Positions 36,107 to 51,915 of a DNA stretch of 64,000 bases are shown piece by piece. Below the pieces are notes generated by a model, which saw only the letters and a list, made by a program, of their open reading frames with translations, searched no databases and was not told the DNA's origin. Numbering within the stretch: position 1 is the stretch's first letter; every line of letters begins with the position of its first letter. Source of the stretch: Microbacterium foliorum (GTDB taxonomy: Bacteria; Actinomycetota; Actinomycetes; Actinomycetales; Microbacteriaceae); NCBI RefSeq assembly GCF_006385575.1, contig NZ_CP041040.1:2976001-3040000 (forward strand). The letters are read 5' to 3'. A program made the position numbers and the translations under genes.

Positions 36107-36929
36107 GCCGACGACCGCCACCCTGCAGCTGTTGCAGCAGTGGGGGCTGCCCGAGCCCGGCGACTCGAAGAAGTCTCGGGGCACGGCGATGATCATCGGC
36201 GGCTCCCCTCTGTCGGCGGGCGCGGTCGTCCTGGCCGGAGAGGCGGCGCTGCGCGTCGGAGCGGGAAAGGTCGCCGTCACGACCGATGCCCCCATCGCCG
36301 ATGTCGTGCGCATCACCCTCCCCGAAGCAGGGGTGTACGAGTCGCCCGGTGCAGACGCGCAGACACCGGACGCCCTGCGCACCGCGTACGAAGGCGCGGA
36401 CGCTGTGCTGGTCGGGCCGGGGTTGGATGACCCGGAGGATGCCGTCGGGTGGCTACGGCGGCTGGCAGGCCACGATATCGCCTGCCTCGTCGTCGACGCC
36501 TTCGCGGTCGGAGCCGTCAGAGAGGTGTCGCGGTCTGATCTTCCGCGGTCCCTGATCATCAACGCCAATCTCGACGAGGCAGAGCTGCTGCTGGGGCGCC
36601 CGGTCGATGACCTCTTCAACGACCTGCGGCCCGTCGCACGGGAGCTGGATGCCGTGATCCACTGCTACTCCGCGGTCGTCGCGCCCTCCGGCGCGGTGTG
36701 GCGGCTCGACGTCGGCGGGCCCGGCCTCGGCACCGCGGGTTCGGGAGACGTGGCCGCAGGCACCATCACGGGTTTCGCGGCCCGGGGGCTCGAACCGGAA
36801 CGCGCCGCCGTGTGGGGAGCCTGGGCTCACGCCCGCGCAGGCGACCGCCTCGCCGAGCGGATGGGTCTGGGCTATCTCGCCCGAGAACTCGCCACAGAAC
36901 TCCCCGCCGCGCTGCGCGAAGTCCACTGA
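36090..36929 (+). CDS. nnrD: ADP-dependent NAD(P)H-hydrate dehydratase
   Basis: A 279-residue ribokinase-like enzyme that repairs hydrated NAD(P)H. Features are KKSRGTAMIIGGSPLSAGAV near the start, GAGKVAVTT, DAVLVGPGL, VDAFAVGAV, LIINANLDEAELLLGRPVDD, and the catalytic GTAGSGDVAAGTITGFAARG loop with the general-base aspartate. It overlaps the phosphatase gene in a different frame. The epimerase partner NnrE, often fused or adjacent, is not seen in this window. Confidence 0.93.
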   Translation: MSAPSEPTTATLQLLQQWGLPEPGDSKKSRGTAMIIGGSPLSAGAVVLAGEAALRVGAGKVAVTTDAPIADVVRITLPEAGVYESPGADAQTPDALRTAYEGADAVLVGPGLDDPEDAVGWLRRLAGHDIACLVVDAFAVGAVREVSRSDLPRSLIINANLDEAELLLGRPVDDLFNDLRPVARELDAVIHCYSAVVAPSGAVWRLDVGGPGLGTAGSGDVAAGTITGFAARGLEPERAAVWGAWAHARAGDRLAERMGLGYLARELATELPAALREVH

Positions 36930-36932
36930 CCC

Positions 36933-38597
36933 TCAGGTCACCCGGCCGTCACCGGGCCGCGATACGCGAAGCCAGCGGTAGCCGTACGCCGGCACCTCCA
37001 GTTCGACCCCACCCTTCGGGTCGAGCGTCAGGCGCGACGACTCGAGGAGGTCGACGAGAGTCGTGCCCTCCGGCTCGTCACCCAGCCGGAACGAGGTGGT
37101 CACCGGCACCTCGGCGAAGTTGTGGAGCGCGATCATCTTGCCGACGTCGGCCGAGAGCGAGTGCACGAGCAGCGACTCGGCCGGCTGGTCGATGACCTCG
37201 AACGTGCCCCACCCGAGTTCCGGGGAGATCCGGTAGCTCGAGGTCAGAGCGCGGATGAAGTACAACAGGGAGCCGCGGTCATCCAACTGGGCGGCGACGT
37301 TCACATGCTCCGGCGCATATCCGTCGGACGGCGGACGCGCGACGAGGCGGCTGGGCGCGGCATCCGAGAATCCTCCGTTGCGATCGTCGGACCACTGCAT
37401 CGGAGTCCGCACGGCCTCCCTGCCGGGGATCTCGATGTTCTCGCCCATGCCGATCTCCTCGCCGTAGAACAGCACCGGAGTGCCGGGCAGGGTGAAAAGC
37501 AGACTGTAGGCCATGCGGATGCGGCGCGGATCGCCGTCGAGCATCGGCGGGAGGCGCCGGGTGATGCCTCGCCCGAACACCCGCTGGCGCTCGTCGGGTG
37601 CGAACGTCTCGAACACCTCCTGCCGCTCGCTGTCGCTGAGCTTGTCGAGGGTCAGCTCGTCGTGGTTGCGCAGGAAGTTCGCCCACTGCACCTCGGCGCC
37701 GAGCACGGGGCGGGCTCGCAGCGCCTCGATCAGCGGAGCCGGATCCTTGCGCGCGAAAGAGAGGTACAGCGACTGCATCCCGACGAAGTCGAACTGCATC
37801 GTGAGCTCATCGCCGTCATCGCCTCCGAAGTACTGCGCCTGCTCGTCGTAGGGCAGGTTGACCTCGCCGAGCAGGATCGCCTCGCTCGACCGACGCTGCA
37901 GGAACCGACGGATGTCGCGCAGCAGTTCGTGCGGCTCTGGGATGCCGGCGCCCTCGGGGATCTCGAGGAGAAAAGGCACCGCATCGACGCGGAAGCCCGA
38001 GATGCCCAGCTGCAACCAGAACCCGATGACCTTGGCGATCTCGTCGCGCACGCGAGGGTTGGCGATGTTCAGGTCGGGCTGGTGCTCGTAGAAGCTGTGC
38101 TGATACCACTGCCCCGACTTCTCATCCTTGCCCCAGATGCCGTTCGCCTGGCCGGGGAAGACGGCGTTCTTCTGGCCCTTCGGAGGAGCGTCGTCGCGCC
38201 AGACGTAATAGTCCCGATAGGGCGAGTCGACGCTGCGCTTGGCGGCGAGGAACCACGGATGCCTGTCAGAGGTGTGGTTGATGACCAGGTCGACGATGAC
38301 CCGCATCCCTCGATCGCGCGCGGTGCGGATCACCTCGACGAAGTCGCCATGCGTGCCCAGACGCGGATCCACACCGTAGAAGTCGCTGACGTCGTAGCCG
38401 TCGTCACGGTCGGGGCTCGGATAGAAGGGCATCAGCCACAGGCAGGTGACGCCGAGCTGCGACAGATAGTCGATCCGCTGGGCGAGGCCCTGCAGATCGC
38501 CGACCCCGTCGCCGTTCGAGTCGAGGAACGTCTCGACGTCGAGGCAGTAGACCACCGCGGTCTTCCACCAGAGGTCGCTCGTATCGGTGATCTTCAC
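36933..38597 (-). CDS. Alpha-amylase family (GH13, trehalose-synthase-like) enzyme
   Basis: A 554-residue GH13 enzyme. Catalytic residues are Asp205 (GFRVDAVP), Glu245 (LLGEVNLPY) and Asp313 (FLRNHDELT). The opening WWKTAVVYCLDVETFLDSNG and DGYDVSDFYGVDPRLGTHGD, as well as INHTSDRHPWF, resemble trehalose synthase (maltose-trehalose interconversion), but the N-terminus has YCLDVETF rather than the usual YQVHVRAF. The C-terminal 60 residues form the beta domain. GTG at 38597 overlaps the preceding stop. The reaction (trehalose synthesis, amylolysis or oligoglucosidase) cannot be settled. Confidence 0.88.
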   Translation of the reverse strand: MKITDTSDLWWKTAVVYCLDVETFLDSNGDGVGDLQGLAQRIDYLSQLGVTCLWLMPFYPSPDRDDGYDVSDFYGVDPRLGTHGDFVEVIRTARDRGMRVIVDLVINHTSDRHPWFLAAKRSVDSPYRDYYVWRDDAPPKGQKNAVFPGQANGIWGKDEKSGQWYQHSFYEHQPDLNIANPRVRDEIAKVIGFWLQLGISGFRVDAVPFLLEIPEGAGIPEPHELLRDIRRFLQRRSSEAILLGEVNLPYDEQAQYFGGDDGDELTMQFDFVGMQSLYLSFARKDPAPLIEALRARPVLGAEVQWANFLRNHDELTLDKLSDSERQEVFETFAPDERQRVFGRGITRRLPPMLDGDPRRIRMAYSLLFTLPGTPVLFYGEEIGMGENIEIPGREAVRTPMQWSDDRNGGFSDAAPSRLVARPPSDGYAPEHVNVAAQLDDRGSLLYFIRALTSSYRISPELGWGTFEVIDQPAESLLVHSLSADVGKMIALHNFAEVPVTTSFRLGDEPEGTTLVDLLESSRLTLDPKGGVELEVPAYGYRWLRVSRPGDGRVT

Positions 38598-39559
38598 AGT
38601 CGCTCCTTGAGTGCGGGGATGAGCTCGGATTCGGCAGCGGCGAGGAAGTACGACTGCTCGGTGCCGACGTGGTGCAGGTACACGCGATCGAATCCGATCT
38701 CCGCGAGGTCGGCGACGCGACCGGCCAGCGCGGTGGCGTCGTGGTCGACCAGCACGGCCTTTCGCAGATCGTTCTTGTCGAGGCCCGCCACCGCCGCCTC
38801 GAAATCCTCGGGCTGCTCGAGATCCCACGTCTCCGGGGGCGAGAGCAGACCGTTGGTCCACTGCTCGCGAGCGATCGCGAATGCCGCCGCGTCGCTGTCC
38901 GCGAGGCTGACGTGCACCTGCAGGATGCAAGGGCCGGAGCCCCCGGCGCCTCGGTAGGCGTCGACGACCCGCTGCAGCGCGGCGGGCTCCTGAGCGACCG
39001 TCGCCAGGCCCTGCGCCCACGACGCCGCCCATTCCGCGGTCTCGGCGCTCACTGCTGTCGCGAACAGCGGCGGCGGCTCGGCCGGTCTGCTCCACACTCG
39101 TGCTCGGTGCACGCGCACCAGGCCGTCGTGATCGACCTCCTCGCCGTCGATCAGCCGGCGGATCACGTCGACGCTCTCGCGCAGTCGTTCGTTGCGGATC
39201 TGCTTGGCCGGCCACCCCTCGCCCGTCACGTGCTCGTTGACCGCCTCGCCGCTGCCCATCGCCGCCCAGAAGCGACCGGGGAACATCTCCTCGAGGGTCG
39301 CGAACGCCTGAGCGATCATCACGGGGTGGTAGCGCTGGCCCGGAGCGTTGACCATCCCGATCGAGAACTCCGTGCAGGCGAGCGCGGCCGCGATCCAGCT
39401 CAGCGCGAAACCGGACTCGCCCTGCGCCCGGGTCCACGGCGCGAGGTGGTCGGAGCACATGGCTCCGTCGAAGCCCGCGCGCTCGGCATCGATCACCGCG
39501 TCGAGAAGCGCGCTCGGTGCGATCTGCTCGTGCGAGGCATGAAAACCGATGAAGACCAT
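38594..39559 (-). CDS. LLM-class flavin-dependent oxidoreductase (TIGR03885-like)
   Basis: A 321-residue luciferase-like TIM barrel. Features are AERAGFDGAMCSDHLAPW, IAAALACTEFSIGMVNAPGQ, EMFPGRFWAAMGSGEAVNEH and the C-terminal FDRVYLHHVGTEQSYFL. It fits the TIGR03885-type FMN-dependent subgroup rather than classical F420 enzymes, by my reading. Its TGA overlaps the GTG of the GH13 gene, so the two are translated together. The physiological substrate is not known; a sugar-related oxidation is a guess. Confidence 0.87.
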   Translation of the reverse strand: MVFIGFHASHEQIAPSALLDAVIDAERAGFDGAMCSDHLAPWTRAQGESGFALSWIAAALACTEFSIGMVNAPGQRYHPVMIAQAFATLEEMFPGRFWAAMGSGEAVNEHVTGEGWPAKQIRNERLRESVDVIRRLIDGEEVDHDGLVRVHRARVWSRPAEPPPLFATAVSAETAEWAASWAQGLATVAQEPAALQRVVDAYRGAGGSGPCILQVHVSLADSDAAAFAIAREQWTNGLLSPPETWDLEQPEDFEAAVAGLDKNDLRKAVLVDHDATALAGRVADLAEIGFDRVYLHHVGTEQSYFLAAAESELIPALKERL

Positions 39560-39648
39560 GCGCCGAGTCTTGCAACGAACAGAGCCGCACGGCAGTGGTG
39601 GACACTCCGCAGCGAGTCTGCGATGATGGGCGGCCCTGCGCCGCGGGG

Positions 39649-40341
39649 CTACTGGCCGGTGGGCCTGACGACGCCGAGCTCGTACGCCAGGATGACCGCC
39701 TGCACACGGTGGGGCAGGTCGAGTTTCACGAGGATGCGGCCGAAGTGGGCCTTCACCGTGGATTCGCTCAGATGCATGGCCTTGGCGATCTCGGTGTTCG
39801 TGAGGCCGCGCCCGATGTGCACGAAGACGTCGCGTTCCCGGTCTGTCAGCACCGAGAGGGCATCGTCCCGAGCCTGGTGGGTGCGGGGGGCCAGGTGCGG
39901 CAGGGCGACTTCGATGAGCTTCGAGGTGATCCGCGGAGCCACCACGGCGTCGCCCGTCGCAACCGTGCGGATCGCGGCGACGAGTTCGTCCGGTCGCGTG
40001 TTCTTGAGCAGGAACCCTGCGGCTCCGGCCTGCAGTGCCCCGAAGGCGAATTCGTCGAGGTCGTAGGTGGTCAGCACGAGCACCCGGGTGCGTGGCAGCC
40101 GCGCGGTGAGATCGCTCGTCGCCTCGATGCCGTCCTTGCCGGGCATGCGCACATCCATCAGGATCACGTCAGGACCCAGCGCGATCGCGGCGTCGACGGC
40201 AGACGCTCCGTCGGAGGCTTCGCCCACGACGTGTATGTCGTCCTCGGCCTCGAGCACGAGACGGAGCCCGTAGCGAACCAGCTCCTGATCGTCGGCGATC
40301 AGCACCCGGATCCGGGCGGCGTGGGCATCGGATGTCGTCAT
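39649..40341 (-). CDS. LuxR-type (NarL) response regulator
   Basis: A 230-residue response regulator with a receiver domain (IRVLIADDQELVRYGLRLVL, phospho-acceptor Asp63 in DVILMDVRMPG, Lys in GFLLKNTRPD) and a C-terminal LuxR helix-turn-helix (LTDRERDVFVHIGRGLTNTE then MHLSESTVKAHFGRILVKLD). It overlaps the histidine-kinase stop by four bases. It probably controls the ABC exporter operon of which it is the last gene. Confidence 0.94.
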   Translation of the reverse strand: MTTSDAHAARIRVLIADDQELVRYGLRLVLEAEDDIHVVGEASDGASAVDAAIALGPDVILMDVRMPGKDGIEATSDLTARLPRTRVLVLTTYDLDEFAFGALQAGAAGFLLKNTRPDELVAAIRTVATGDAVVAPRITSKLIEVALPHLAPRTHQARDDALSVLTDRERDVFVHIGRGLTNTEIAKAMHLSESTVKAHFGRILVKLDLPHRVQAVILAYELGVVRPTGQ

Positions 40342-41525
40342 CGGTCCTCCGTCTGCAGTCGTACGAACACGCGCCAGCCCCCGCCCGGTCGAGGCCCGGC
40401 CTCGACGTGCCCGTCGTAGAACGCGGCGCGCTCGCGGATGCCGACCAGGCCACGGCCCGGGTCGACGACCGGCGGGGCCGGCGCAGACCTGTCCTCCACG
40501 ACGATCGACACATCCTCGTCCGTGATGCTGATCCTCACCACGACATCCTGCACGTCGCGCGCGTGCCGCAGGACGTTCGTCAGCGCCTCCTGCACGATGC
40601 GGTAGACCGTCAGCCCCACCACGGCATCGGCGTCGATGGCGCCCGTCTGCTCGAGTCGCACCGGCAGACCCGCGATCCGCGACTCTTCGATGAGAGACGG
40701 GACGCGCTCCATGCTCGCCTGCGTCGGCTGACGGTCGACCGGGTCGCCCTCGCCGCGCACCGTCGTCAGCAGGCGCCTCATCTCGACGAGGGTTCGGCGC
40801 CCGGTCTCGGCGACCCGCCCGATCGCCCGGCGGGATTCCTCTGGCCGAGCGGCTGCAGAAGCCTGCGCCCCGTCGGCGACCGCGACCATCACGGCGAGGC
40901 TGTGGGCGATCACGTCGTGCATCTCCCGCGCGATGCGCTCGCGCTCGAGCGCGGCGGCGATGTGCGCCTCCTGGTCGCGCTCGCGGCGCATCTGCTCCGC
41001 TCGTTCCACGAGTGCGCGCAGCTCCCGCCGCCGGTGGCCGACGTTGAGCCCGACGAGGGTGGACATCAGCGAGACCGCGACCACCACGGTGGCGATGCCG
41101 AGCCAGTCGAGGGGCCAGGCGTCGAGGTCCACTCGCGGCGCCAGCCCGAGCAGCGGCGGGCCGAGGCGCACGCGGATCGCCAGCACCAGCGCCGCGAGCG
41201 TGCCCGACACCGCGGCCGCGGCGAACGCCGTCCAGGCCTGCCGCGGCCGGAGGTCGACTCCACACCGGTACAGCGCCCCCACGGCGAGCACCGCTTCGGC
41301 GCCTGATCCGCCGGCGAATGACAGCGGGAGAAGGACGATGACGGCGATGAGGGCCACGAGAGGATGCCGACGCGAGACGAGGATCGCCGAGATGCCGGCG
41401 ACGAGCAGCGTCACGAGCGCCCACGCGGGTGTGGTCAGCGACGACTCGAGCGACAGGTAGCCGAGGGCCAGCGAGACCGCCGAGTACGCCCCGAGAGCCA
41501 CGAGGTCGGATCGCCGCGGTGTCAT
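40338..41525 (-). CDS. Sensor histidine kinase (HisKA_3 type)
   Basis: A 395-residue kinase with five to six N-terminal helices (TTPAWALVTLLVAGISAILV, PLVALIAVIVLLPLSFAG and others to residue 160). A dimerisation domain carries the phospho-histidine His203 in REMHDVIAHSLAV. The C-terminal HATPase_c is of the LiaS/NarX class with VYRIVQEALTNVLRHARDVQ and GRGLVGIRERAAFYDGHVEA. No large extracellular domain exists, so it probably senses a membrane or transporter-related signal. It is coupled to the response regulator and to the permease by four-base overlaps. Confidence 0.93.
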   Translation of the reverse strand: MTPRRSDLVALGAYSAVSLALGYLSLESSLTTPAWALVTLLVAGISAILVSRRHPLVALIAVIVLLPLSFAGGSGAEAVLAVGALYRCGVDLRPRQAWTAFAAAAVSGTLAALVLAIRVRLGPPLLGLAPRVDLDAWPLDWLGIATVVVAVSLMSTLVGLNVGHRRRELRALVERAEQMRRERDQEAHIAAALERERIAREMHDVIAHSLAVMVAVADGAQASAAARPEESRRAIGRVAETGRRTLVEMRRLLTTVRGEGDPVDRQPTQASMERVPSLIEESRIAGLPVRLEQTGAIDADAVVGLTVYRIVQEALTNVLRHARDVQDVVVRISITDEDVSIVVEDRSAPAPPVVDPGRGLVGIRERAAFYDGHVEAGPRPGGGWRVFVRLQTEDR

Positions 41526-42364
41526 ACGTCTCTCTTGCGCAGTGCGATCGCGCCCGCGGCGAGCGCGATCGCCGCCCAGATCGACGCGATCAGCCAGCCT
41601 GCACCCACGCTGATGTGACCGCTCCACAGGTCGAGGAACGGACCGCCGTCAGCGCCGACCCGGCTCATCGCATCGCCCGCATTGCCCAGCTGGGCGATGC
41701 GCAGAGCGCGGGAGAGCAGCCCGTACGGAAGCAGCGACGTCAGCACGGGCAGCAGCAGCGTGGCCAGGAAGACGATGATCGCTCCCGCGGTCGTCGATCG
41801 CACGAGAGTGCCGATGCCCACCCCGAACAGTGCGCAGAGCCCGAGATACCCCGCAGAGCTGAGCAGCGCGACCACGACCCCGGGTGCGGTGAGCGGTGCC
41901 GCGAGGCCGAACTGCGCATAGATCGGCGTGGTGAGCGCCCATGCGCTGAACACGGTGACGAGGGCGGTCGCAGTGGCGGCGATGAATACCACGACCGCCT
42001 TCGCGCCAAGGACGCGCAACCGGTCGGGCACCGCGACGAACGTGGGCTGAATCGAGCCCGATGCGTACTCGGCGCCGATCAGCATGACTCCGAGGATACC
42101 GGCGATGATCTGGCCGAGGACGACGGTCGGCACCGTGACGTCGGCCATGGTGCGCTCGATCAGGAGCACCGACGGAGCACCCGACGACTCGAGCGTCACG
42201 CCGAGGAACAGGCTGCCACCGACCCCGATGAGGAAGATCGCCGCGAGGGCGAGCACGGAGGAGGGCAGGCTGAACAGCTTGATCCACTCCGACCGCAGCA
42301 CGTGGGTGAACGCGGGGCGCCGAGTGCGCGCATCCGCTCGTCGGGGACTCGTGGTGAGGGTCAT
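41522..42364 (-). CDS. ABC transporter permease
   Basis: A 280-residue permease with six helices, including VLALAAIFLIGVGGSLFLG, VVLGQIIAGILGVMLIGAEY, VVALLSSAGYLGLCALFGV and AIIVFLATLLLPVLTSLLPY. The segment GAEYASGSIQPTFVAVPDR is typical of ABC-2-type permeases in BcrB-like peptide-resistance exporters. It is preceded by the ATPase with a four-base overlap, giving ATPase-permease-kinase-regulator order. Confidence 0.9.
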   Translation of the reverse strand: MTLTTSPRRADARTRRPAFTHVLRSEWIKLFSLPSSVLALAAIFLIGVGGSLFLGVTLESSGAPSVLLIERTMADVTVPTVVLGQIIAGILGVMLIGAEYASGSIQPTFVAVPDRLRVLGAKAVVVFIAATATALVTVFSAWALTTPIYAQFGLAAPLTAPGVVVALLSSAGYLGLCALFGVGIGTLVRSTTAGAIIVFLATLLLPVLTSLLPYGLLSRALRIAQLGNAGDAMSRVGADGGPFLDLWSGHISVGAGWLIASIWAAIALAAGAIALRKRDV

Positions 42365-43293
42365 CGTCCGGCTCCTTCGGTGGCGTCGTGCGCGGTCGCG
42401 CGGTATTCGGTGTCGTGAGCGGTGAGGGCGAGGTAGGCGTCTTCGAGCGAGCCCTCGACGGTGGCGATCTCGTACAGCACGATGCCCGCATCGGCCGCGG
42501 CACGCGCCACCTCCTCGGCGGGGAGGCCGTCGATCTCGACCGCGCCATCCGGGTGCGTCGTCATGGTGACCCGGGGGCCCGCGAGGGTGCTCATGAGTCG
42601 CTCGACCTCTCTGGTCCTCACGCGCACCACGGATCGGGTCACACCCGCGACCACGTCGTGCAGCGGCCCGTCGGCCAGAATCGTCCCTCGGCCGATGACC
42701 AGCAGATGGTCGGCCGTCTGGGTCATCTCGCTCATCAGATGCGACGAGAGCAGCACGGTCTTCCCCTCCCCCGCCAGCTGCCGCAGCAGGCCGCGGATCC
42801 ACAGGATGCCGTCGGGGTCGAGGCCGTTCACCGGCTCGTCGAGGATGATCGTCTGCGGGTCCCCGAGCAGAGCCGCGGCGATCCCCAGCCGCTGGTTCAT
42901 GCCGAGCGAGAATCCGCCGACCCGCCTGTCCGCCACAGCATCCAGTCCTGCGATCTCGATCACCTCACGCACGCGGGCGGCGCCGATGGCGTGGGTGGCC
43001 GCGATCGCCCGCAGGTGCTTGTAGGCGGTGCGGCGCCGGTGCGCCGAGCGCGCATCGAGCAGAACGCCGACCTCGCGCAGCGGTGCGGGCAGATCCGCGT
43101 AGGCCCGACCGTTGACCTCCGCGGTGCCCGCGGTCGGCCGGTCCAAGCCGACGATCATCCTCATGGTCGTGGACTTGCCGGCCCCGTTGGGTCCCAGGAA
43201 TCCGGTGACCGTGCCCGGTTCGACGGTGAAGTCGATGCCGTTCACGGCCACCCTCTCGCCGTAGTGCTTCGTCAGAGACTGAACTCGAATCAT
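42361..43293 (-). CDS. ABC transporter ATP-binding protein
   Basis: A 310-residue ATPase with Walker A GPNGAGKST (about residue 34), signature FSLGMNQRLGIAAAL and Walker B TIILDEPVNGLD. The H-loop is SSHLMSEM. The C-terminal 80 residues (RSVVRVRTREVERLMSTLAG onward) form the regulatory domain seen in drug/lantibiotic exporters such as BcrA. ATG at 43293 has GAAAGGCGC upstream. It heads a four-gene operon (ATPase, permease, sensor kinase, response regulator) likely for antimicrobial peptide resistance or envelope stress. Confidence 0.93.
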   Translation of the reverse strand: MIRVQSLTKHYGERVAVNGIDFTVEPGTVTGFLGPNGAGKSTTMRMIVGLDRPTAGTAEVNGRAYADLPAPLREVGVLLDARSAHRRRTAYKHLRAIAATHAIGAARVREVIEIAGLDAVADRRVGGFSLGMNQRLGIAAALLGDPQTIILDEPVNGLDPDGILWIRGLLRQLAGEGKTVLLSSHLMSEMTQTADHLLVIGRGTILADGPLHDVVAGVTRSVVRVRTREVERLMSTLAGPRVTMTTHPDGAVEIDGLPAEEVARAAADAGIVLYEIATVEGSLEDAYLALTAHDTEYRATAHDATEGAGR

Positions 43294-43360
43294 GTCGCGC
43301 CTTTCGTTCGCCTTCGACGCTACGAACGACGGCGCGCGGGCACATCGGGCTGCAGTCCTG

Positions 43361-43387
43361 ACCCTGGCGACAAGGCAGTACCAGGGT
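43361..43387. promoter_or_regulatory. Inverted repeat upstream of the ABC/two-component operon
   Basis: ACCCTGG at 43361-43367 and its complement CCAGGGT at 43381-43387, separated by 13 bases, lie 68 bases upstream of the ATPase start. A repeat of this size and position is a candidate site for the operon's own LuxR-type regulator. It also lies between divergent genes. Confidence 0.45.
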
Positions 43388-43529
43388 CTATACCCCGAAA
43401 TCGTAGGAATCTCGACTCGGCTATTCATTCCATTCAGTGGCACGTGTGTTTTACTAGATAGAAGCAGTTTGACCGGTCCGGGAGAGATGCGGAACCTCTC
43501 GTCAGCGTTGTCGGTTCAGGGAGGCTCTC

Positions 43530-44201
43530 ATCAGCGAACAGTCCACGCGCACCGTAGAACGGGCGCTCTCGCTCCTCGCCAACGTGTGCGAGACGGGAAG
43601 CACCACCCTCGCGGATGCGTCCAGGGCGGTCGACCTCGCGCCGAGCACCGCGCTGCGGCTGCTTCGCACACTCGAGTCCAGCGGCTTCGTACGGCGCGAC
43701 GACGAAGGCAGCTATCGTGCCGGCTCCCGACTGATGCAGCTCGGCGCGCGGGCTCTCGGTCACGAGTCCTTGATCGACGTGTGCCACGAAGAGATGGTCG
43801 GGCTCGAAGAGGCGACCGGCGAATCGGTCTACCTGAGCGTCGAGGGGCACGCGGCATCCGCCCTCTACATCAGCATCGTCGAGGGGTCCCACTCCGTCCG
43901 GCACTCGAACTGGGTCGGCCGCACAATCCCTCTCGAAGGGTCCGCGGCCGGACTCGTCCTCCGCGGCGAGACGCCCCCCGAAGGCTTCGTGGTCGTCGAG
44001 CGGGGCATCGAGCGCGACGTGACCGCCATCGCATCGCCCATCGCCGCGGGTGAACGCATCGTGGCCGTCATCAGCATCCTCGTGCCGAGTTACCGGATGA
44101 CCGAGAAGTCGTCCCAGCAGTGCGGCGCGCTTCTCGCAGCAGCCGCCCGCCGCATGTCGGCCGGGCTCACCAACGGCACCGCCCTCCAGGAGCAGTCATG
44201 A
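43530..44201 (+). CDS. IclR family transcriptional regulator (apparent ATC start)
   Basis: A regulator of about 223 residues if translation starts at 43530. The winged helix covers STRTVERALSLLANVCET, SRAVDLAPSTALRLLRTLES and GFVRRDDEGSYRAGSR; the C-terminal ligand domain has GLEEATGESVYLSVEGHAAS and SHSVRHSNWVGRTIPL. AGGGAGG sits six bases before ATC, and the peptide would then begin (M)SEQSTRTV, the usual IclR opening. No ATG, GTG or TTG lies in frame between the last upstream stop (43470-43472) and GTG 43584. Starting at GTG 43584 would cut 18 residues from the first helix. It heads the former hut operon. Confidence 0.85.
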   Translation: MSEQSTRTVERALSLLANVCETGSTTLADASRAVDLAPSTALRLLRTLESSGFVRRDDEGSYRAGSRLMQLGARALGHESLIDVCHEEMVGLEEATGESVYLSVEGHAASALYISIVEGSHSVRHSNWVGRTIPLEGSAAGLVLRGETPPEGFVVVERGIERDVTAIASPIAAGERIVAVISILVPSYRMTEKSSQQCGALLAAAARRMSAGLTNGTALQEQS

Positions 44202-44305
44202 TCCGATTCGAGAACGTCACCAAGGTCTACGACGCCGACACCACAGCCGTCGACACCCTCACACGCCAGCGCGACCTCCGGGTTCCCCTGTGGGAGGGAG
44301 CGTGA
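44198..44305 (+). pseudogene. Scar ORF: ProV/HutV-type ATPase start joined to urocanase end
   Basis: A 35-codon frame overlapping IclR by ATGA and the next gene by GTGA. It begins MIRFENVTKVYDADTTAVD, which matches the first 19-22 residues of ProV/HutV/OpuCA-type ABC ATPases, but no Walker A follows. It ends RQRDLRVPLWEGA, which looks like the C-terminus of urocanate hydratase (its last residues commonly read as a charged helix then L-x-x-P-x). The simplest explanation is a large in-frame deletion between a hutV-like gene and hutU in an ancestral hut operon that preserved translational coupling. The C-terminal match rests on memory of the family and is not proven. Confidence 0.65.
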
Positions 44306-45501
44306 CCGAGTTCGATGCACTCCAGCTTCTCCGAGAGATAGAAGACATCGGCCGAGACGGGCGACGGGGCGGGTACTCGCGGCATGTGTTCGACGACGCC
44401 GAGCGCGACCTTCGCGACTGGTTCGTCGAACGCGCTCAGCGGCTCGGCCTGCGGGTCACCACCGACCGCAATGCCAATCTGTGGGCCTGGTGGGGAGAGC
44501 CGGGGCCCGATGCCTTCGTCACGGGCAGCCACCTCGATTCCGTGCCCGGTGGCGGCGCGCACGACGGCCCTCTCGGTGTCGTCAGTGCGCTGGCCGCCGT
44601 CGAGCGCCTCAAAGCCGGCGGATTCGTGCCGAGCCGCCCGTTCGCGGTGGTCGTGTTCGCCGAAGAGGAGGGTTCGCGGTTCGGCGTCGCGTGTCTGGGA
44701 TCGCGCCTTCTCTCCGGCGCGATGACCCCCGACCGCCTGGCACAGCTGACGGATGCCTCGGGTCAGCGGTACATCGATGTCGCACGCGACGCATCGCTGC
44801 CCGAACCCGGCTACGACGCCGAGGCGCTCTCGCGCATCGGGATGTACGTCGAACTCCACGTCGAGCAGGGCAAGGGACTGGTCGACCTCGACAGCCCCGT
44901 CGCGGTCGGCTCGTCGATCCTCGAGCACGGCCGGTGGCGCATCGACGTGCGCGGCCAGGGCAATCACGCGGGCACCACCGAGATCTCCGATCGCCACGAC
45001 CCGATGCTGCCGGCTGCGGCCGCAGTACTCGCCGCGCGGCGGGCCGCTCTCGTGCGTATCGGCTCGCGGGCGACGATCGGCCGTCTCGAGCCGATGCCCG
45101 GTGGCACCAACGTCATCGCGTCTCGGGTGTCGGCATGGATGGATGTCCGCGCCGATTCCGAAGCGGACACTCGCGACATCGTCGACGAGGTGCGGGCCGC
45201 GGTCATCGAAGCGGCCGCGGCTGAGGGCTGCGAGGCGTCCGTGATCGAAGAGTCCTACAGTGGCGAGGTCCTCTTCGACCCGCAGCTGCGCGACCGCATC
45301 GCCACGACCCTCGGCGGCGTTCCCGTCCTCCCCACCGGGGCCGGGCACGACGCGGGCGTCCTCGCGGCGCACGTGCCGACGGCGATGCTCTTCGTGCGCA
45401 ACCCCTCCGGCGTCTCGCATGCTCCCGAGGAGGGCGCCGACGATGCGGCCGTGCAGGCCGGTGTCGACGCCCTCGTGCGGACCATCGAGGATCTGTCATG
45501 A
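44302..45501 (+). CDS. M20-family amidohydrolase (allantoate amidohydrolase/carbamoylase-like)
   Basis: A 399-residue zinc peptidase-like enzyme of the hydantoinase/carbamoylase subgroup. Metal-binding marks are GSHLDSVPGGGAHDGPLG (His77, His87, Asp88) and VFAEEEGSRFG (Glu121-123), and the dimer domain includes the substrate-carboxylate contact NHAGTTEISDRHD. The family hydrolyses N-carbamoyl, allantoyl or N-formyl amino acids. Here it sits directly before hutF, whose product is N-formylglutamate, so a formylglutamate deformylase role is likely. GTG at 44302 has GGGAGGGA upstream and overlaps the scar ORF. Confidence 0.9.
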   Translation: MTEFDALQLLREIEDIGRDGRRGGYSRHVFDDAERDLRDWFVERAQRLGLRVTTDRNANLWAWWGEPGPDAFVTGSHLDSVPGGGAHDGPLGVVSALAAVERLKAGGFVPSRPFAVVVFAEEEGSRFGVACLGSRLLSGAMTPDRLAQLTDASGQRYIDVARDASLPEPGYDAEALSRIGMYVELHVEQGKGLVDLDSPVAVGSSILEHGRWRIDVRGQGNHAGTTEISDRHDPMLPAAAAVLAARRAALVRIGSRATIGRLEPMPGGTNVIASRVSAWMDVRADSEADTRDIVDEVRAAVIEAAAAEGCEASVIEESYSGEVLFDPQLRDRIATTLGGVPVLPTGAGHDAGVLAAHVPTAMLFVRNPSGVSHAPEEGADDAAVQAGVDALVRTIEDLS

Positions 45502-46802
45502 GGGTCTGGGCTGATCGGCTCGTACGTGCGGGCACCGTCGAGCGCGGAGTCCTGTGGGAGACGGATGCCGCGGGGCTGGTCGTCTCAGAGGCCACCGGCA
45601 CAGCGGCTCCGGCGGATGCCACGATCCTCGAGCTCGCGGCCCCCGGTTTCGCCGACGCGCACTCGCATGCCTTCCACAGGGCTCTTCGCGGGCGCACTCA
45701 CGAGTCCGGGTCGTTCTGGACATGGCGAGAGCTCATGTACCGAGCGGCAGGGCGTCTCGATCCCACGACGTATCGGGAGTTCGCCGCAGCCGTGTTGTGC
45801 GAGATGGCCCTATCGGGATGGACGACCGTCGGAGAGTTCCACTACGTCCACCACCGCCCCGACGGCTCCCCCTACGGCGACCACGCGATGGAGATCGCCC
45901 TCGCCGACGCCGCGGTCGAAGCCGGCATCCGCCTGGTCCTGCTCGACACGTGCTATCTCGCGGGAGGCATCGGGGCACCGCTCACCCCGGAACAGGCGCG
46001 TTTCGGCGACCGAGATGCCGACGCGTGGCTCGCGCGATGGCACTCGTTGCGCGAAGCCCTGGCCGACAGGTCCGAACTCGTCACGCTCGGCGCGGCGCTC
46101 CACTCGGTGCGCGCGGTGCCCCGTGATGCCCTCGCCCACATCGCACGCGAACTGCCCGATGACGTACCGCTGCACATCCACCTGTCGGAGCAGCCTGCCG
46201 AGAACGCCGACTGCATCGCCGCGTACGGCCTGACCCCGACGGAGCTTCTCGCCGAAGAGGGAGTGCTCTCGCGGCGCCTCTCGGTCGTCCATGCGACTCA
46301 CCTCACCGACAACGACATCCGCCTGCTCGGAGACGCAGGCGTGCACGCTGTGTTCTGTCCCACGACAGAGGCGGATCTCGGCGACGGCATCGGCCCGGCC
46401 GTCGAGCTGATCGCGGCGGGGGCCAGACTGGCGGTGGGCTCGGATCAGAATGCCGTCATCGACCCGCTGCTCGAGCTACGGGGCCTCGAGGCCGGCGAGC
46501 GGCTGCGCTCGCTGCGCCGCGGGCGCATCGCGCCGGCATCCCTCTGGCGCATCGGCTCAGCCGGTGGCTACGGTTCGCTCGGTCTCGCCGAGCCGGCGCG
46601 CGTGGGAGGTCCGCTCGACCTCGTCGAACTCGACCCGAGCTCGCTCCGCACGGCGGGCAGCAGGGCGGAACAGCTGCCGTTGACCGCGACCGGCGCAGAC
46701 GTCACCCGCACGATCGTGGGTGGCCGCACCATCACGCACGACGAGAAGGCGGTCGCAGAGCGCCTGCACAGATGCATCGCCGAGCTGTTCGAGGAGAACT
46801 GA
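45498..46802 (+). CDS. hutF: Formimidoylglutamate deiminase
   Basis: A 434-residue amidohydrolase-superfamily enzyme that converts N-formimidoyl-L-glutamate to N-formyl-L-glutamate in histidine degradation. Metal-binding residues lie in APGFADAHSHAFHRALRG (His55, His57). Other family marks are SFWTWRELMYRAAGRLDP, TTVGEFHYVHHRPDG, HLSEQPAENADC and VGSDQNAVIDPLLELRGLE. ATG overlaps the preceding stop. No HutU, HutH or HutI is present in the window, so this is the lower part of a pathway only. Confidence 0.93.
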   Translation: MRVWADRLVRAGTVERGVLWETDAAGLVVSEATGTAAPADATILELAAPGFADAHSHAFHRALRGRTHESGSFWTWRELMYRAAGRLDPTTYREFAAAVLCEMALSGWTTVGEFHYVHHRPDGSPYGDHAMEIALADAAVEAGIRLVLLDTCYLAGGIGAPLTPEQARFGDRDADAWLARWHSLREALADRSELVTLGAALHSVRAVPRDALAHIARELPDDVPLHIHLSEQPAENADCIAAYGLTPTELLAEEGVLSRRLSVVHATHLTDNDIRLLGDAGVHAVFCPTTEADLGDGIGPAVELIAAGARLAVGSDQNAVIDPLLELRGLEAGERLRSLRRGRIAPASLWRIGSAGGYGSLGLAEPARVGGPLDLVELDPSSLRTAGSRAEQLPLTATGADVTRTIVGGRTITHDEKAVAERLHRCIAELFEEN

Positions 46803-46844
46803 TCGCCTGTCGCCGAGTGCGGGGCTCGCGCACGGTGTTCGCAA

Positions 46845-46982
46845 TCATGCGGATGCTCCGTCGCGGCGGGCTCCCGCCGCGACGAGAAGCGCGCCGACGA
46901 GTGTGAGCGGGACCACGCAGCCCATGGCCGCCACGAGCCAGGCCGCACCGCTCCCGGGCACGCGCCGGTCTGGTTGAGTCAC
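46845..46982 (-). CDS. Possible 45-residue single-helix membrane protein
   Basis: A 46-codon minus-strand frame from GTG at 46982 to TGA at 46845, opening MTQPDRRVPG and containing one hydrophobic helix (AAWLVAAMGCVVPLTLVG) then ALLVAAGARRDGASA. The G/C-rich third positions and the charged flanks fit a real small membrane protein, but there is no strong ribosome-binding site. It occupies most of the 250-base gap between hutF and the amidohydrolase; the rest of that gap shows nothing else I can recognise. It could instead be a remnant. Confidence 0.4.
   Translation of the reverse strand: MTQPDRRVPGSGAAWLVAAMGCVVPLTLVGALLVAAGARRDGASA
46859..46884 (+). terminator. GC-rich hairpin after hutF
   Basis: CGTCGCGGCGGG and CCCGCCGCGACG flank a two-base loop (effectively 11 pairs with a four-base loop), 57 bases after the hutF stop. 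It has no T tract and also lies inside the small opposing ORF, so it may be coding coincidence. Confidence 0.45.
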
Positions 46983-47053
46983 CGGTCCACGCGCAGGGTG
47001 AGAGAGGTCGGCGCACTCGCCGGCACCTCACTGACACTGAAAGCAGATCTGAA

Positions 47054-48451
47054 ATGAACGTCACACTCGCCGACTTCACGGCGGCACGCGACGCTGATCG
47101 ACCCATCCTCATCAGCGGAGCAGCCATCGTCACCATGGACCCGAACGTGCCCGATCTCGATACCGGCGACGTCCTGATCGTCGGGTCGCGCATCGTCGCC
47201 CTCGGTTCCGACCTGCGCGAAGATCCTCAGCACGCAGCCGATGCGCGCTCTGCTCTCGTGATCGATGCCCGCGGTGCGATCGTCAGCCCAGGGTTCGTCG
47301 ACACCCACCGCCATGCCTGGGAGGCGCAGCTCCGTCGCAGCATTCCCGACGTGACCGACCTCGGTGCCTACGTCATGTCGACGCTCGCCGGAATCGCTCC
47401 GAGCTACACGCCCGAAGACATGCGTGTGGGCACCCGGCTCGCCGCTCTGACAGCCCTCGACTCCGGCATCACGACAATGCTCGACTTCTCTCACAACTCG
47501 CGCAGCGTCGCTCATTCCGACGCCGCGGTGAACGCGCTCATCGATTCCGGAATCCGCGGGGTGCACGCGTCCATGGGACCGCACTTCGGCGACTGGGAGA
47601 AGCAGTGGCCCGCCGATATGGGGCGCCTCGTGCGGGACTTCCACGGTGCCGCCGATGGACTCATCACCGTGCGGCTCGCGGCACTGTCGACAGACGAGAT
47701 CGCCGGGCCCACGCTCGCGTTCGGGCCGGAGCTCGCCGCGCTCGCTCGTGAGCTGGGAGTGAGCACGAGCATCGACGCGGTCTTCGGCAGTTCGTCGTCC
47801 GAAGCGATCTTGCAGTGGGCCACGCAGGGCATCCTCGACCCGACGCTCACCCTGATCCACTCGACGGGACTCACCTCCACGGCGTGGGCGGCGATGGGCG
47901 ACGCCGGGGTGACGGTGTCTCTGGCCCCGACGTCCGACGCGCAGATCGGCTTGGAAACGGCGATCCCCGCAATCGATGAGGCTCTCGCTGTCGGCATCCG
48001 GCCCGGACTGAGCATCGACGTCGAGGTGGCGCTCGCCAGTGACATGTTCACGCAGATGCGTGCCCTGCACGCGATCCAGCGGATGCGCGCAACATCGGCT
48101 TCATACGGCACAGACATCGTGCTGCCGCGAATCACCACCCGGGACGTCCTCGATTTCGCGACCCTGCAAGGGGCCCGCACAAACGGCCTCGGCGAGGTCA
48201 CCGGCTCGCTCACTCCAGGCAAGCAGGCGGACCTGCTCATCGTCCGCGCGGACGACATCAACAACATGCCGCTCAACGACGCTGTGGGCACGCTCGTGCT
48301 CGGCTCGGACCCGCGCAACATCGAGACGGTGCTGGTTGCCGGGCACGCGCGGAAGTGGGCGGGCCGTCTCGTCGACGTGGACATCGAAGCCCTCCGCGAA
48401 GAGGTCGTTCGCTCGCGCGACGACATCACCGCACGGGTCGCCTCTCTCTGA
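47054..48451 (+). CDS. Amidohydrolase family protein (TrzN/AtzA-like)
   Basis: A 465-residue metal-dependent hydrolase of the ATZ/TRZ type. The metal motif is FVDTHRHAWEAQ (HxH), followed by LTLIHSTGLT and ATSDAQIGLETAIPAIDEAL region motifs, with a C-terminal LTPGKQADLLIVRADDINN closing the beta-sandwich. These enzymes deaminate or dechlorinate triazines, purines or S-adenosyl derivatives; the substrate here is unknown. It is not HutI: the HutI signature HTHLVFAGDR is absent. It begins about 70 bases after the small opposing ORF and ends before a strong terminator. Confidence 0.88.
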   Translation: MNVTLADFTAARDADRPILISGAAIVTMDPNVPDLDTGDVLIVGSRIVALGSDLREDPQHAADARSALVIDARGAIVSPGFVDTHRHAWEAQLRRSIPDVTDLGAYVMSTLAGIAPSYTPEDMRVGTRLAALTALDSGITTMLDFSHNSRSVAHSDAAVNALIDSGIRGVHASMGPHFGDWEKQWPADMGRLVRDFHGAADGLITVRLAALSTDEIAGPTLAFGPELAALARELGVSTSIDAVFGSSSSEAILQWATQGILDPTLTLIHSTGLTSTAWAAMGDAGVTVSLAPTSDAQIGLETAIPAIDEALAVGIRPGLSIDVEVALASDMFTQMRALHAIQRMRATSASYGTDIVLPRITTRDVLDFATLQGARTNGLGEVTGSLTPGKQADLLIVRADDINNMPLNDAVGTLVLGSDPRNIETVLVAGHARKWAGRLVDVDIEALREEVVRSRDDITARVASL

Positions 48452-48486
48452 GCGCGGCTCCGGAGAAGACCCCTTCGACACGAAAG

Positions 48487-48528
48487 GGAGCGGCCGTGGA
48501 TCGAGACATCTCGATCCACGGCCGCTCC
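48487..48528. terminator. Strong bidirectional terminator between amidohydrolase and Atu4866 genes
   Basis: A perfect 20-base-pair inverted repeat beginning GGAGCGGCCGTGG with a two-base loop (19 pairs if the loop is four bases), flanked by A-rich and T-rich bases. It lies between convergent genes and could end transcription from both sides. Confidence 0.85.
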
Positions 48529-48542
48529 TTCCGTTGAGGGTG

Positions 48543-48788
48543 TCAGATACGACGCAGGATCATCCCGGCGTGATACAGGACACCGTCGACGAAGTCGCCG
48601 TCTGCCGTGAACCCTGTGTCGTCTACATAGTCGATGTGATCACCCGAGACGGTGTATCTGCCGGTGTAGGCGGACTCCCGACTCCCCCGCGCCTCGACGT
48701 AACGCCCGTCAGGCAGCAGCTCATGTCGAACGTGGGCATCGGCTGTGTGCCACATGCCTACGTAGGGGTGCGGCGCGGTCTCAGCCAT
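48543..48788 (-). CDS. Atu4866-domain small protein
   Basis: An 81-residue protein consisting of one Atu4866 domain: YVGMWHTADAHVRHELLPDG, RYVEARGSRESAYTGRY and DHIDYVDDTGFTADGDFVDG. The domain is a small lipocalin-like barrel of unknown ligand. The composite protein just upstream carries the same domain at its C-terminus, so a duplication is likely. The genes lie 27 bases apart on one strand and are probably co-transcribed. Confidence 0.85.
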   Translation of the reverse strand: MAETAPHPYVGMWHTADAHVRHELLPDGRYVEARGSRESAYTGRYTVSGDHIDYVDDTGFTADGDFVDGVLYHAGMILRRI

Positions 48789-48815
48789 GTCGGCTCTCCT
48801 TCATGATCTGCATCT

Positions 48816-49559
48816 TCAGCGACGAGTGAGTGTGTAGGGCCCGTGGTGCAGGACACCGTCGACGAACTCACCGAACGCCCAGAAGCCGAGATCATCGAGG
48901 TAGTCGATCCGGTCGCCGTCGATCCAGAAATTGCCCTGGTAGGCGTGCGGGCGACCGCCACGTGTCTCGTCGTAGCGTCCGTCAGCCGTCAGCTCCTGGT
49001 GCAGGAAGTCCGACTCGTCGATCCACATTCCCAGGTAGGGGCTGGTCGACGGAGCGACCTCTCCTGCGTGCGTCCGGTCCGGACGCGCCGGGGCGTTGAC
49101 CGTCCGCTCGCCGTTCCAGAGCACGACCTTGCCGTCGATGACGACCGCCGCGACGGACTCGGGCTGCGCGAGCACCGTGGCGACTGCGGTGGAGGCATCG
49201 CGCGCCAGCTCCGAGTCGACGATCGCGAAGCTGCCCGTGTTGCCCGGCCACAGAGTGCCGACGTCAGATGAGCGGTCCTCGTTGAGGCCGAGCACGGTAC
49301 GGGCGTCCATCACCATGGGCACGATCACCATGCCTGCGCAGTCGATGACAAGAGCGTTGTCGTCGCCCGCAGCCGTCACGATTCCCGGTCCGGTGCCGAC
49401 GATGAAGCCCACGCCGAGCAGGATGTCGGCGTTTTCCATGTCGCCCACCTGCGAGTCGAACAGGTGGACGTGTGCACCGACGAACAGCAACGGCCGAAGG
49501 TACTCGGCCTGATTCTCGATGATGCTCTGCAGCAATTCGGGCGTGAATGCCTTGTTCAT
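48816..49559 (-). CDS. Barrel-less amidohydrolase-like protein fused to an Atu4866 domain
   Basis: A 247-residue composite. Residues 1-90 (LRPLLFVGAHVHLFDSQVGD, ALVIDCAGMVIVPMVMDA) look like the N-terminal beta-sandwich strand set of an amidohydrolase such as the neighbour at 47054. Residues 95-150 (GTLWPGNTGSFAIVD, VVIDGKVVLWNGE) look like its C-terminal strand set. The metal-binding TIM barrel that should lie between is missing. Residues 165-247 form an Atu4866 domain (SPYLGMWIDESDFLHQELTA). Catalysis is therefore unlikely; a binding role is possible. ATG has GAGGAGGAAT upstream. Confidence 0.8.
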   Translation of the reverse strand: MNKAFTPELLQSIIENQAEYLRPLLFVGAHVHLFDSQVGDMENADILLGVGFIVGTGPGIVTAAGDDNALVIDCAGMVIVPMVMDARTVLGLNEDRSSDVGTLWPGNTGSFAIVDSELARDASTAVATVLAQPESVAAVVIDGKVVLWNGERTVNAPARPDRTHAGEVAPSTSPYLGMWIDESDFLHQELTADGRYDETRGGRPHAYQGNFWIDGDRIDYLDDLGFWAFGEFVDGVLHHGPYTLTRR

Positions 49560-49569
49560 ATTCCTCCTC

Positions 49570-49588
49570 GATCTCCGGAGTGGAGATC
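49570..49588. promoter_or_regulatory. Inverted repeat upstream of the composite Atu4866 gene
   Basis: GATCTCC-GGAGT-GGAGATC, a perfect seven-base repeat with a five-base spacer, begins 11 bases upstream of the Atu4866 start, overlapping its leader. It is a plausible operator for the divergently encoded XRE regulator. Confidence 0.45.
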
Positions 49589-49745
49589 CTGAACTCCAGC
49601 CTGCGAAGCGGCTCGTGGCACAGACAGACCGCGACGCACCCTGGCAACACGCACTCTGGCTCGCGCCAGGCGCCGCGGCCGGACCCTGACAGCGGGGGTG
49701 CGCCACGCCCTGTCTGCGATGCCTCGCGGCAGGCAGACTGTCGGT

Positions 49746-50603
49746 ATGGCGACCAACGAACTCGGGCTCTTCCTCGCCGCGCGGCGCGCGGGCATCAGCC
49801 CCGACGCTGCCGGCATCCATTGGAGTGGCGTCCGTCGCGTCCCCGGCCTTCGACGCGAAGAAGTCGCGATGCTCGCCGGGGTCAGTGTCGACTACTACGC
49901 ACGGCTCGAACAGGGCCGAGAGAAGGGCCCGTCCCCTTCGGTGCTCAACGCGCTGAGTCGGGCCCTCGATTTGACGCCGGATGCGCGCGAGCATCTCTAT
50001 CGGCTCGCCGGTGCCGCACCTGCCCCCGCTCCGACTCCCGCCATCGAGCACGTGGACTCGCCGCTGCTCCGCTTGATGGACGCGTGGCCCGACACACCCG
50101 CTTTCGTCCTCAACCGGCGCCTCGACATACTCGCGATGAACCCGCTCGCCGGTGCCCTCTACTCGGGGTTCGCGAACCCGCGAAACCTCGCCCGGATGGT
50201 CTTCGCAGAACCCGAGGGCCCTGCCTTCTTCCACGACTGGGATCGCTCCGCGCAAGGGAGCGTGGCCAACATCCGACTTGCCCTGGGCTACGACGCCCAC
50301 GACCGTGCGACCTTGGCGCTGGTGGAGGAGCTGCGGGCGAGCAGTCCGCGTTTCTCCGCGCTGTGGGAGAAGAATGAGGCGCGAGGCAAGACCCACGATG
50401 CCAAGGTGTTCGTCCATCCCGTTGTCGGCCGTCTCACACTCGAATTCAACGCGTTCGACGTGCGTGGCGCGACGGGGCAGCAGCTGATCGTCTACCGGGC
50501 GGAACCCGGATCACCGAGTGACGACGCGCTCCGACTGCTCGCGACGCTCGCCGCGACTCGCGGGGCGACGACGGACGAGGTCGACGCGCGGATCAGCCGG
50601 TAG
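49746..50603 (+). CDS. XRE-family regulator with MmyB-like C-terminal domain
   Basis: A 285-residue regulator with an N-terminal helix-turn-helix (LRREEVAMLAGVSVDYYARL then EQGREKGPSPSVLNALSRAL) and a C-terminal MmyB-type PAS-like ligand domain (AFVLNRRLDILAMNPLAGAL, FFHDWDRSAQGSVANIRLAL, VGRLTLEFNAFDVRGAT). MmyB-like proteins bind fatty acids or other ligands. It diverges from the Atu4866 pair and probably controls it. ATG at 49746 is preferred. Confidence 0.92.
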   Translation: MATNELGLFLAARRAGISPDAAGIHWSGVRRVPGLRREEVAMLAGVSVDYYARLEQGREKGPSPSVLNALSRALDLTPDAREHLYRLAGAAPAPAPTPAIEHVDSPLLRLMDAWPDTPAFVLNRRLDILAMNPLAGALYSGFANPRNLARMVFAEPEGPAFFHDWDRSAQGSVANIRLALGYDAHDRATLALVEELRASSPRFSALWEKNEARGKTHDAKVFVHPVVGRLTLEFNAFDVRGATGQQLIVYRAEPGSPSDDALRLLATLAATRGATTDEVDARISR

Positions 50604-50659
50604 GAGAGCGAGGATCACGCGTGGGGTCCTCGGTGCGCTCAGGCATCGAGCGTTCGCGC

Positions 50660-51103
50660 CTACCGCGCGGCGGACTCCCGCACGCGGAACCACAGAGTGA
50701 GCTCCATGATCGCCCGCCCGATCATGTCGTGGTCTCCCACGCGGAGGTCGTCGAAGGAGTCGCGATAGCCGGACAGCAACTTCGGCTCGGCGGCGACGAG
50801 CGACTGATAGCCCATCGTCCACTCGGCGAAGCGCCGCTCGTGCAGCGGCTCCTCGATCAGCACACGCACGTCCTCGTGACGGGGATCTCGGCCGATGATC
50901 TCCATCAGGCTCTCCACGTCCGACCTGGTGCCCTCGAGGATCTGGACGAACTCACCGCCTCGGTAGAGCAGCATGCCGGTGATGTCACGGGCGCTGTTCC
51001 GGGCGCGGCTCACCGCGAGGAGGTCGGCGAGCTCCTGTTCGCTGAACGGGTGCGTCGCACTGCTGCAGTAGACGAGCGAGACGAGCGGGTTCTCCGCATT
51101 CAT
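50660..51103 (-). CDS. BLUF-domain blue-light photoreceptor
   Basis: A 147-residue protein that is essentially a single BLUF domain, which binds FAD and rearranges hydrogen bonds on blue-light absorption. The key residues are Tyr12 (SLVYCSSA), Asn36 (ARNSARDITGML) and Gln54 (FVQILEG). The C-terminal 45 residues (FDDLRVGDHDMIGRAIMELT) form the usual capping helices. No output domain is present, so it must act through a partner; its ATG overlaps the stop of a 72-residue ORF (ATGA), a good candidate partner. Confidence 0.92.
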   Translation of the reverse strand: MNAENPLVSLVYCSSATHPFSEQELADLLAVSRARNSARDITGMLLYRGGEFVQILEGTRSDVESLMEIIGRDPRHEDVRVLIEEPLHERRFAEWTMGYQSLVAAEPKLLSGYRDSFDDLRVGDHDMIGRAIMELTLWFRVRESAAR

Positions 51104-51318
51104 CCGGCATCCCCTTCCCGAGTCGTCACCGCGGCCATCGCGCGGTGGTGGTCTGCGAAGTCGCCGATGGAGCGCGAGACGGCATCGAACGCACGCCACA
51201 TTCCATCCGCCTGACGGTCGACGTAGCCGAGGAACGACCCGTCCCGGCTGCCCACGTAGAAGCCGTCGGCCACGCTCGCCCACAGGGGTCGAGAGGCGAG
51301 CGGCGATTGATCACCCAT
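51100..51318 (-). CDS. Small protein coupled to the BLUF gene
   Basis: A 72-residue protein with ASVADGFYVGSRDGSFLGYV followed by MWRAFDAVSRSIGDFADHH. I do not recognise it. The GFYVGSRDGSFLGYVDR segment looks like a small beta domain and the rest like a helix. Its stop overlaps the BLUF start (ATGA), so the two proteins are made together and may form a light-controlled complex. Confidence 0.7.
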   Translation of the reverse strand: MGDQSPLASRPLWASVADGFYVGSRDGSFLGYVDRQADGMWRAFDAVSRSIGDFADHHRAMAAVTTREGDAG

Positions 51319-51435
51319 GCCTTCAGCGTACCTTCGCGCTCAGGGGCGGGCTCGGCACGGGATCATCCTCGAGATGTACGCCGCTACCTCGCCCGCCCGA
51401 TGTCGACGCGGCGCGCGTCGACCAGGCTGGAACGT

Positions 51436-51876: not shown

Positions 51877-51915
51877 GGATCGAGACGACGTTCACCCCCT
51901 GCGAGGATGAACGGC

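Follow-up and report, generated by a model that had tools for sequence, protein, structure and literature searches.

In Microbacterium foliorum, a 35-codon open reading frame between an iclR-type regulator gene and an M20-family amidohydrolase gene is very probably a deletion scar in an acquired hut operon of the type seen in Agromyces and in genome G049, trimmed in a host that has a hutH-hutU-hutI operon of its own. The window is the whole 64,000-nucleotide stretch of the M. foliorum genome that was analysed, and positions refer to it unless a contig (C1) is given; G numbers denote the genomes and L numbers the loci that were compared.

Parentage of the 35-codon reading frame

The reading frame (44198..44305, forward strand; 35 codons plus stop) fuses the start of hutV with the end of hutU, and, read directly, it translates to MIRFENVTKVYDADTTAVDTLTRQRDLRVPLWEGA before its stop. 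The part derived from hutV, a gene for an ABC ATPase of the ProV/HutV type, spans 44198..44261 (codons 1-21 plus one base), and the part derived from the 3' end of hutU, the urocanase gene, spans 44262..44305 (44261-44302 were matched to hutU ends), both on the forward strand. None of the HutV/ProV motifs Walker A, signature and Walker B is found in the scar, which holds only codons 1-21, ahead of Walker A (GPSGCGKTT in the HutV of relatives). Likewise, the NAD-binding and catalytic core of urocanase is missing, only the last 14 codons being left, and a Pfam search of the 35 residues gave no family match. The first-pass annotation had described the ORF as HutV-like at its start, urocanase-like at its end and devoid of a catalytic core, and the matches to intact genes bear this out.

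Both overlaps with the neighboring genes that had been reported earlier are present in the sequence: the iclR stop TGA at 44199-44201 creates an ATGA overlap, and the M20 start GTG at 44302 creates a GTGA overlap. Two ribosome-site-like sequences on the forward strand were also read directly, AGGAG ahead of the scar ORF (44188..44192) and the GGAGG of M20 within the last hutU codons (44293..44297). AGGAG also precedes hutV in L049 and L147, and the AGGAG here is best read as inherited from hutV. GGAGG is found at the equivalent place in L010, L011, L049, L050, L051, L052 and L147. In decaying operons, deletion-fusion pseudogenes consist of two gene ends joined without the catalytic core; the scar is likewise built, but it is short and open, with four-base overlaps on both sides.

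To match the two halves to intact genes, both were slid along 11 loci and identities were counted. The hutV half (63 nt) scored 55/63 at the hutV start of Agromyces albus (L147; MIRFESVSKVYDDGTTAVDNLNLEVP), 53/63 at that of G304 (L049; MIRFESVSKVYDDGTTAVDSLDLEVP) and 51/63 at that of G224 (L052; VIRFENVSKVYDDGTRAVDDLSFEVP), with 43 in L014 and 41 in L053; the best places elsewhere in the 11 loci reached 33-38. For the hutU half (42 nt), the hutU end was the top-scoring place in L052, L010, L011 and L147 (31/42 each) and L049 (30), and also in the weaker loci L050 (28), L079 (27) and L014 (25). That end tied at 25 in L051 and was outscored in L053 and L017 by chance places with 26 and 29 identities; over all loci the best chance places scored 24-29/42. 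The hutU ends of G049 and Agromyces read ADIARARGLRVPMWEGE and ADIARERGLRVPMWEGA, respectively. Because the DNA match of the hutU half is modest, its assignment is secure mainly through its in-register place touching M20, which had been predicted in advance. The proposed alignment to HutV starts and HutU ends therefore held clearly for the hutV half, and modestly but in register for the hutU half.

A junction query of 251 bases was compared with 366 genomes of the genus, M. foliorum included, scoring no more than two candidates in each and listing matches to about E 3e-5. In the two genomes of this search with intact hutV and hutU, the query breaks at the junction, into 2-112 and 115-251 in G224 and into 8-111 and 97-250 in G304. 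Only one other row among the matches listed crosses the junction, that of G331 (query 76-251, 68%), and it is explained by the intact hutU that its locus, L051, carries at the junction place. No other species showed the scar junction among the matches listed for the 366 genomes, at most two candidates being scored in each, and the short ORF conserved in relatives, which the first-pass annotation had named as the finding that would speak against a scar, was not seen among them. An exact 33-base pattern sought in genome contigs gave no match, in a set that may not include the M. foliorum genome.

The intact operon and the extent of the deletion

The layout iclR-hutV-W-W-X-hutU-M20-hutF-hutI is intact in Agromyces albus (L147), G304 (L049) and G224 (L052). 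The proposed comparison of synteny thus revealed hutV-W-W-X-hutU between iclR and M20 in all three loci, and the segment deleted at the scar, from hutV to hutU, had been named correctly. Among the named loci, which are the best 80 of 147 encoding an M20 relative and partly come from the same genomes as the G-numbered ones, hutU stands directly upstream of M20 in 78; the remaining two are Microbacterium marinilacus, with hutU further upstream, and a locus that ends at a contig edge. This argues that the absence of hutU from the M. foliorum cluster is derived. Nine genomes of the genus, M. foliorum included, have an M20 gene at least 80% identical, and the cluster contains hutU in seven of them, the exceptions being M. 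foliorum and G325. One of the seven, G179, has it some 4.5 kb upstream from M20. The hutI gene follows hutF in L010, L049, L050, L051, L052, L053 (to the stretch end) and L147.

Agromyces albus DSM 15934 (L147) shares with M. foliorum the order of iclR, M20 and hutF (86%, 88% and 80% identity), and its hutV start and hutU end match both scar halves, but it keeps hutV, two permeases, the binding protein, hutU and hutI, all of which are gone from the M. foliorum cluster. The nearest relatives of the M. foliorum cassette are those of G049 and G101 (L010, L011/L148), in which, unlike in M. foliorum, hutU stands between iclR and M20; no hutV-W-W-X was found in them. The G049 cassette has the hutI that is missing from the M. 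foliorum cluster, and the G101 contig ends in hutF. Since the scar retains the hutV start, the loss of hutV-W-W-X in G049 and G101 was separate from that in M. foliorum. Near clusters with hutV-W-W-X there is a second, divergent homologue of ammonia-lyase, at 28-30% to HutH (L049 10313-11491, L052 5737-7029, L053 1707-3089, L015 4988-6244, and in L152 and L155); none was seen in the examined stretch of Agromyces L147. A hut cluster of this family is also present in L151, a record titled Planococcus sp. APC 4015, a title that looks wrong.

With the Agromyces genes as a guide (hutV CTCAATCTG, hutU ATCGCACGC, window CTCACACGC), the crossover was placed by eye near 44261/44262, where the two genes apparently share no more than a few bases. 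The distance from the hutV start to the hutU stop is 5,127 bases in G304, 5,150 in Agromyces and 108 in M. foliorum, a net loss of 5,019 and 5,042 bases, respectively (about 5.0 kb). The earlier suggestion of an in-frame deletion preserving translational coupling stands in that the frames meet and both four-base overlaps are present; as 5,042 does not divide by three, "in frame" means only that both reading frames meet. A deletion between long direct repeats was discarded as a candidate, as no repeat pair at both junctions was found among the 20 largest families of at least 60. The deletion spared the ribosome site and the start of M20, both of which lie within the last hutU codons. The position of this site inside the hutU end would fit a deletion that could not extend further without hurting M20.

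The regulator gene upstream (43530..44201, forward strand; PF09339, PF01614) is 86-88% identical to iclR of Agromyces albus, G049 and G101. At the ancestral start position, 43530, M. foliorum has ATC. Of nine relatives, eight carry ATG or GTG there, the exception being L052, whose GTG lies 18 bases upstream. A ribosome-site-like GGAGG precedes the gene at 43520-43524. From the upstream stop (43470) to 43530 the frame contains no ATG, GTG or TTG, and the next in-frame start, GTG at 43584, lies inside the HTH region and would truncate it. The IclR regulator may thus be poorly made or silent.

A cassette probably foreign to a host with its own urocanase

Downstream of the scar, the M20-family gene (44302..45501, forward strand; NF006770, 573.9 bits, cut-off 372) overlaps by ATGA with hutF, encoding formimidoylglutamate deiminase (45498..46802, forward strand; NF006681, 513.8 bits, cut-off 362). 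The longest M20 frame opens at GTG 44290, and relatives align from 44302. From its position beside hutF, the M20 protein is presumed to be the partner of hutF in a deformylase role. No hutI remnant was detected in the interval that separates hutF from the following gene; the sole tblastn match (E 1, window 40001-52000) lies inside hutF. The hutI gene is therefore also gone from this cluster, a loss that the first-pass annotation had missed.

That annotation had further held that the loss leaves histidine degradation without HutU, which is refuted by an intact hutU elsewhere. The single urocanase of the genome (C1:3176211-3176834, Pfam core) lies in a hutH-hutU-hutI operon (L017) about 156 kb from the scar, ruling out a genome devoid of HutU. 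HutH, HutU, HutI and HutF all score over the NCBIfam cut-offs (TIGR01225, TIGR01228, TIGR01224 and NF006681), and a lyase family search yielded a single hutH. Histidine breakdown is thus predicted to be encoded in two loci, with HutH, HutU and HutI at C1:3.174-3.179 Mb and HutF and M20 at the cassette. An M20 match at E 1e-100 occurs in 66 of the 366 genus genomes, and 61 of these have a urocanase. A relocated hut transporter was also considered, with the hut-linked binding protein as query, and rejected: this protein is not found elsewhere in the M. foliorum genome, which the first-pass annotation had also missed, and the sole match is a 40% paralogue, of a type (39-45%) present in 15 of the 15 genomes searched.

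To compare the history of the cassette with that of the host, we used rpoB and gyrB as the only species markers, with one genome per species (15 genomes for rpoB; 14 of the same for gyrB, G007 with its split gyrB being excluded). M. foliorum grouped with G217, G276 and G325 in rpoB (100/100, protein and DNA) and in gyrB (100/99 protein, 100/100 DNA), and the distant hutU gave the same grouping as the markers (own, G276, G217b and G325b; 100/100). In contrast to this host grouping, the cassette genes iclR, M20 and hutF together united M. foliorum with G049 and G101 at 100/99, or 100/98 with other genera added. This was also seen with M20 alone (99/98), and hutF alone placed M. foliorum with G049 (97/95); the iclR tree gave no resolved place for the M. 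foliorum gene. Agromyces albus, from another genus of the same family, joined the three at 93/98, a value that was not starred. In AU tests, for which the groups were picked after the trees had been viewed, M. foliorum with G049 and G101 was rejected for rpoB (p-AU 1.7e-5), and M. foliorum held together with G325 and G217 was rejected for the cassette (p-AU 1.8e-5). These results support a phylogenetic origin of the cassette outside its host lineage, a point that the earlier reading had missed. In G007, a hutH-like gene and gyrB are each split into two overlapping pieces (G007:C1:2868507-2869873 and 2634730-2636692), which suggests frameshifts in the genome or the assembly.

The genes of G217 equivalent to window 35397-36919 and 51904-52215 adjoin each other, so that about 15 kb (window 36920-51903), the cassette included, are extra in M. 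foliorum, although G217 could instead have lost DNA at this place. Besides the cassette, this stretch contains a two-component system, an amylase-family gene, another amidohydrolase, an ABC ATPase that probably has a membrane partner and, near the cassette, a gene for a BLUF blue-light sensor domain protein (50663-51283, reverse strand), which points to a variable region and not to a single clean insert. A second large gap in the same comparison runs from window 13386 to 35397. The left-flank ABC gene was useless as a marker of the insertion site, as only matches of about 60% or lower were listed elsewhere, and a plasmid search gave no match.

Proposed origin of the scar and a possible parallel reduction

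The preferred reading can be laid out as follows. An operon iclR-hutV-W-W-X-hutU-M20-hutF-hutI of the Agromyces/G049 type would have entered a lineage with hutH-hutU-hutI, as the trees suggest, in a host already able to convert histidine to formiminoglutamate. About 5.0 kb would have been deleted via illegitimate recombination, before or after the transfer, a single step being the simplest account, and comparison with intact genes indicates that hutV was joined after codon 21 to the last 14 hutU codons with the reading frames meeting. The redundant hutV-W-W-X, hutU and hutI would have been lost, hutI in addition to the 5.0-kb deletion, with retention of iclR and of hutF and M20, the steps absent from the host operon. 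The scar ORF most likely yields no useful protein; at most, ribosomes passing over it may assist the start of M20, whose ribosome site it carries.

It is unlikely, though worth weighing, that the 35-codon ORF is instead a selected coupling peptide or small gene, its frame kept open so that ribosomes reach the M20 start. The two four-base overlaps and both ribosome-site-like sequences would suit such a role, as would G325, in which everything between the genes is lost and M20 lies directly behind AGGAG. However, the junction occurs in no other genome among the matches listed, frames meet by chance in one third of joins, the M20 overlap is an inheritance from hutU, and the iclR start itself looks damaged. 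Still less probable is a vertical history, with the whole cluster ancestral and hutH-hutU-hutI the newcomer that made the old hutU redundant, which would leave the scar itself unchanged. Redundancy with a second hutU would also account for the loss under it, and G217 has two clusters with a urocanase in each, but the distant hutU, unlike the cassette, agrees with the species markers, as the rejected grouping of the cassette with G325 and G217 attests. That the ORF arose by chance, unrelated to hutV or hutU, is hardly credible: the hutU half alone, at 30-31/42 against chance places of up to 29, might allow it, but the hutV half reaches 51-55/63, the query splits in two at the same point in G304 and G224, and the hutU end adjoins M20 in register.

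The G325 cassette (L048), like that of M. foliorum, is iclR-M20-hutF without hutV, hutU and hutI, none of which was found within 17 kb around it, and hutH-U-I lies elsewhere (L079). Its junction, unlike that of M. foliorum, is clean and scar-free, with iclR and M20 about nine bases apart (L048 5067-5049) and an AGGAG like that of hutV. The G325 cassette is not sister to that of M. foliorum (p-AU 0.0023; 0.013 once other genera are included), so that the reduction in G325 appears to have happened independently. Besides hutH-U-I, G217 carries a more divergent iclR-hutU-M20-hutF cluster (62-79% identity), in which no hutV or hutI was seen, and its state appears comparable to that expected midway through trimming. 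We tentatively suggest, as a possibility that we consider doubtful, that in both the M. foliorum and the G325 lineage, where hutH-U-I was already present, a complete hut operon was acquired and, independently, pared down to the missing steps hutF and M20, with the M20 translation start kept each time. The M. foliorum scar would then be a still-coupling intermediate of a convergent trimming by complementarity. There are no more than two independent strip-downs to iclR-M20-hutF, which is not enough to establish a rule.

Among the papers listed in literature searches, none has a title that describes this locus. Operon trimming of this sort is known and ordinary, but the present case is unusually readable: with intact relatives for both ends, it shows how an acquired catabolic operon can shrink to what complements the host. 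The case further cautions against equating the loss of a gene from a cluster with its loss from the genome. If the parallel with G325 holds over more genomes, rules of operon trimming after transfer would become testable.
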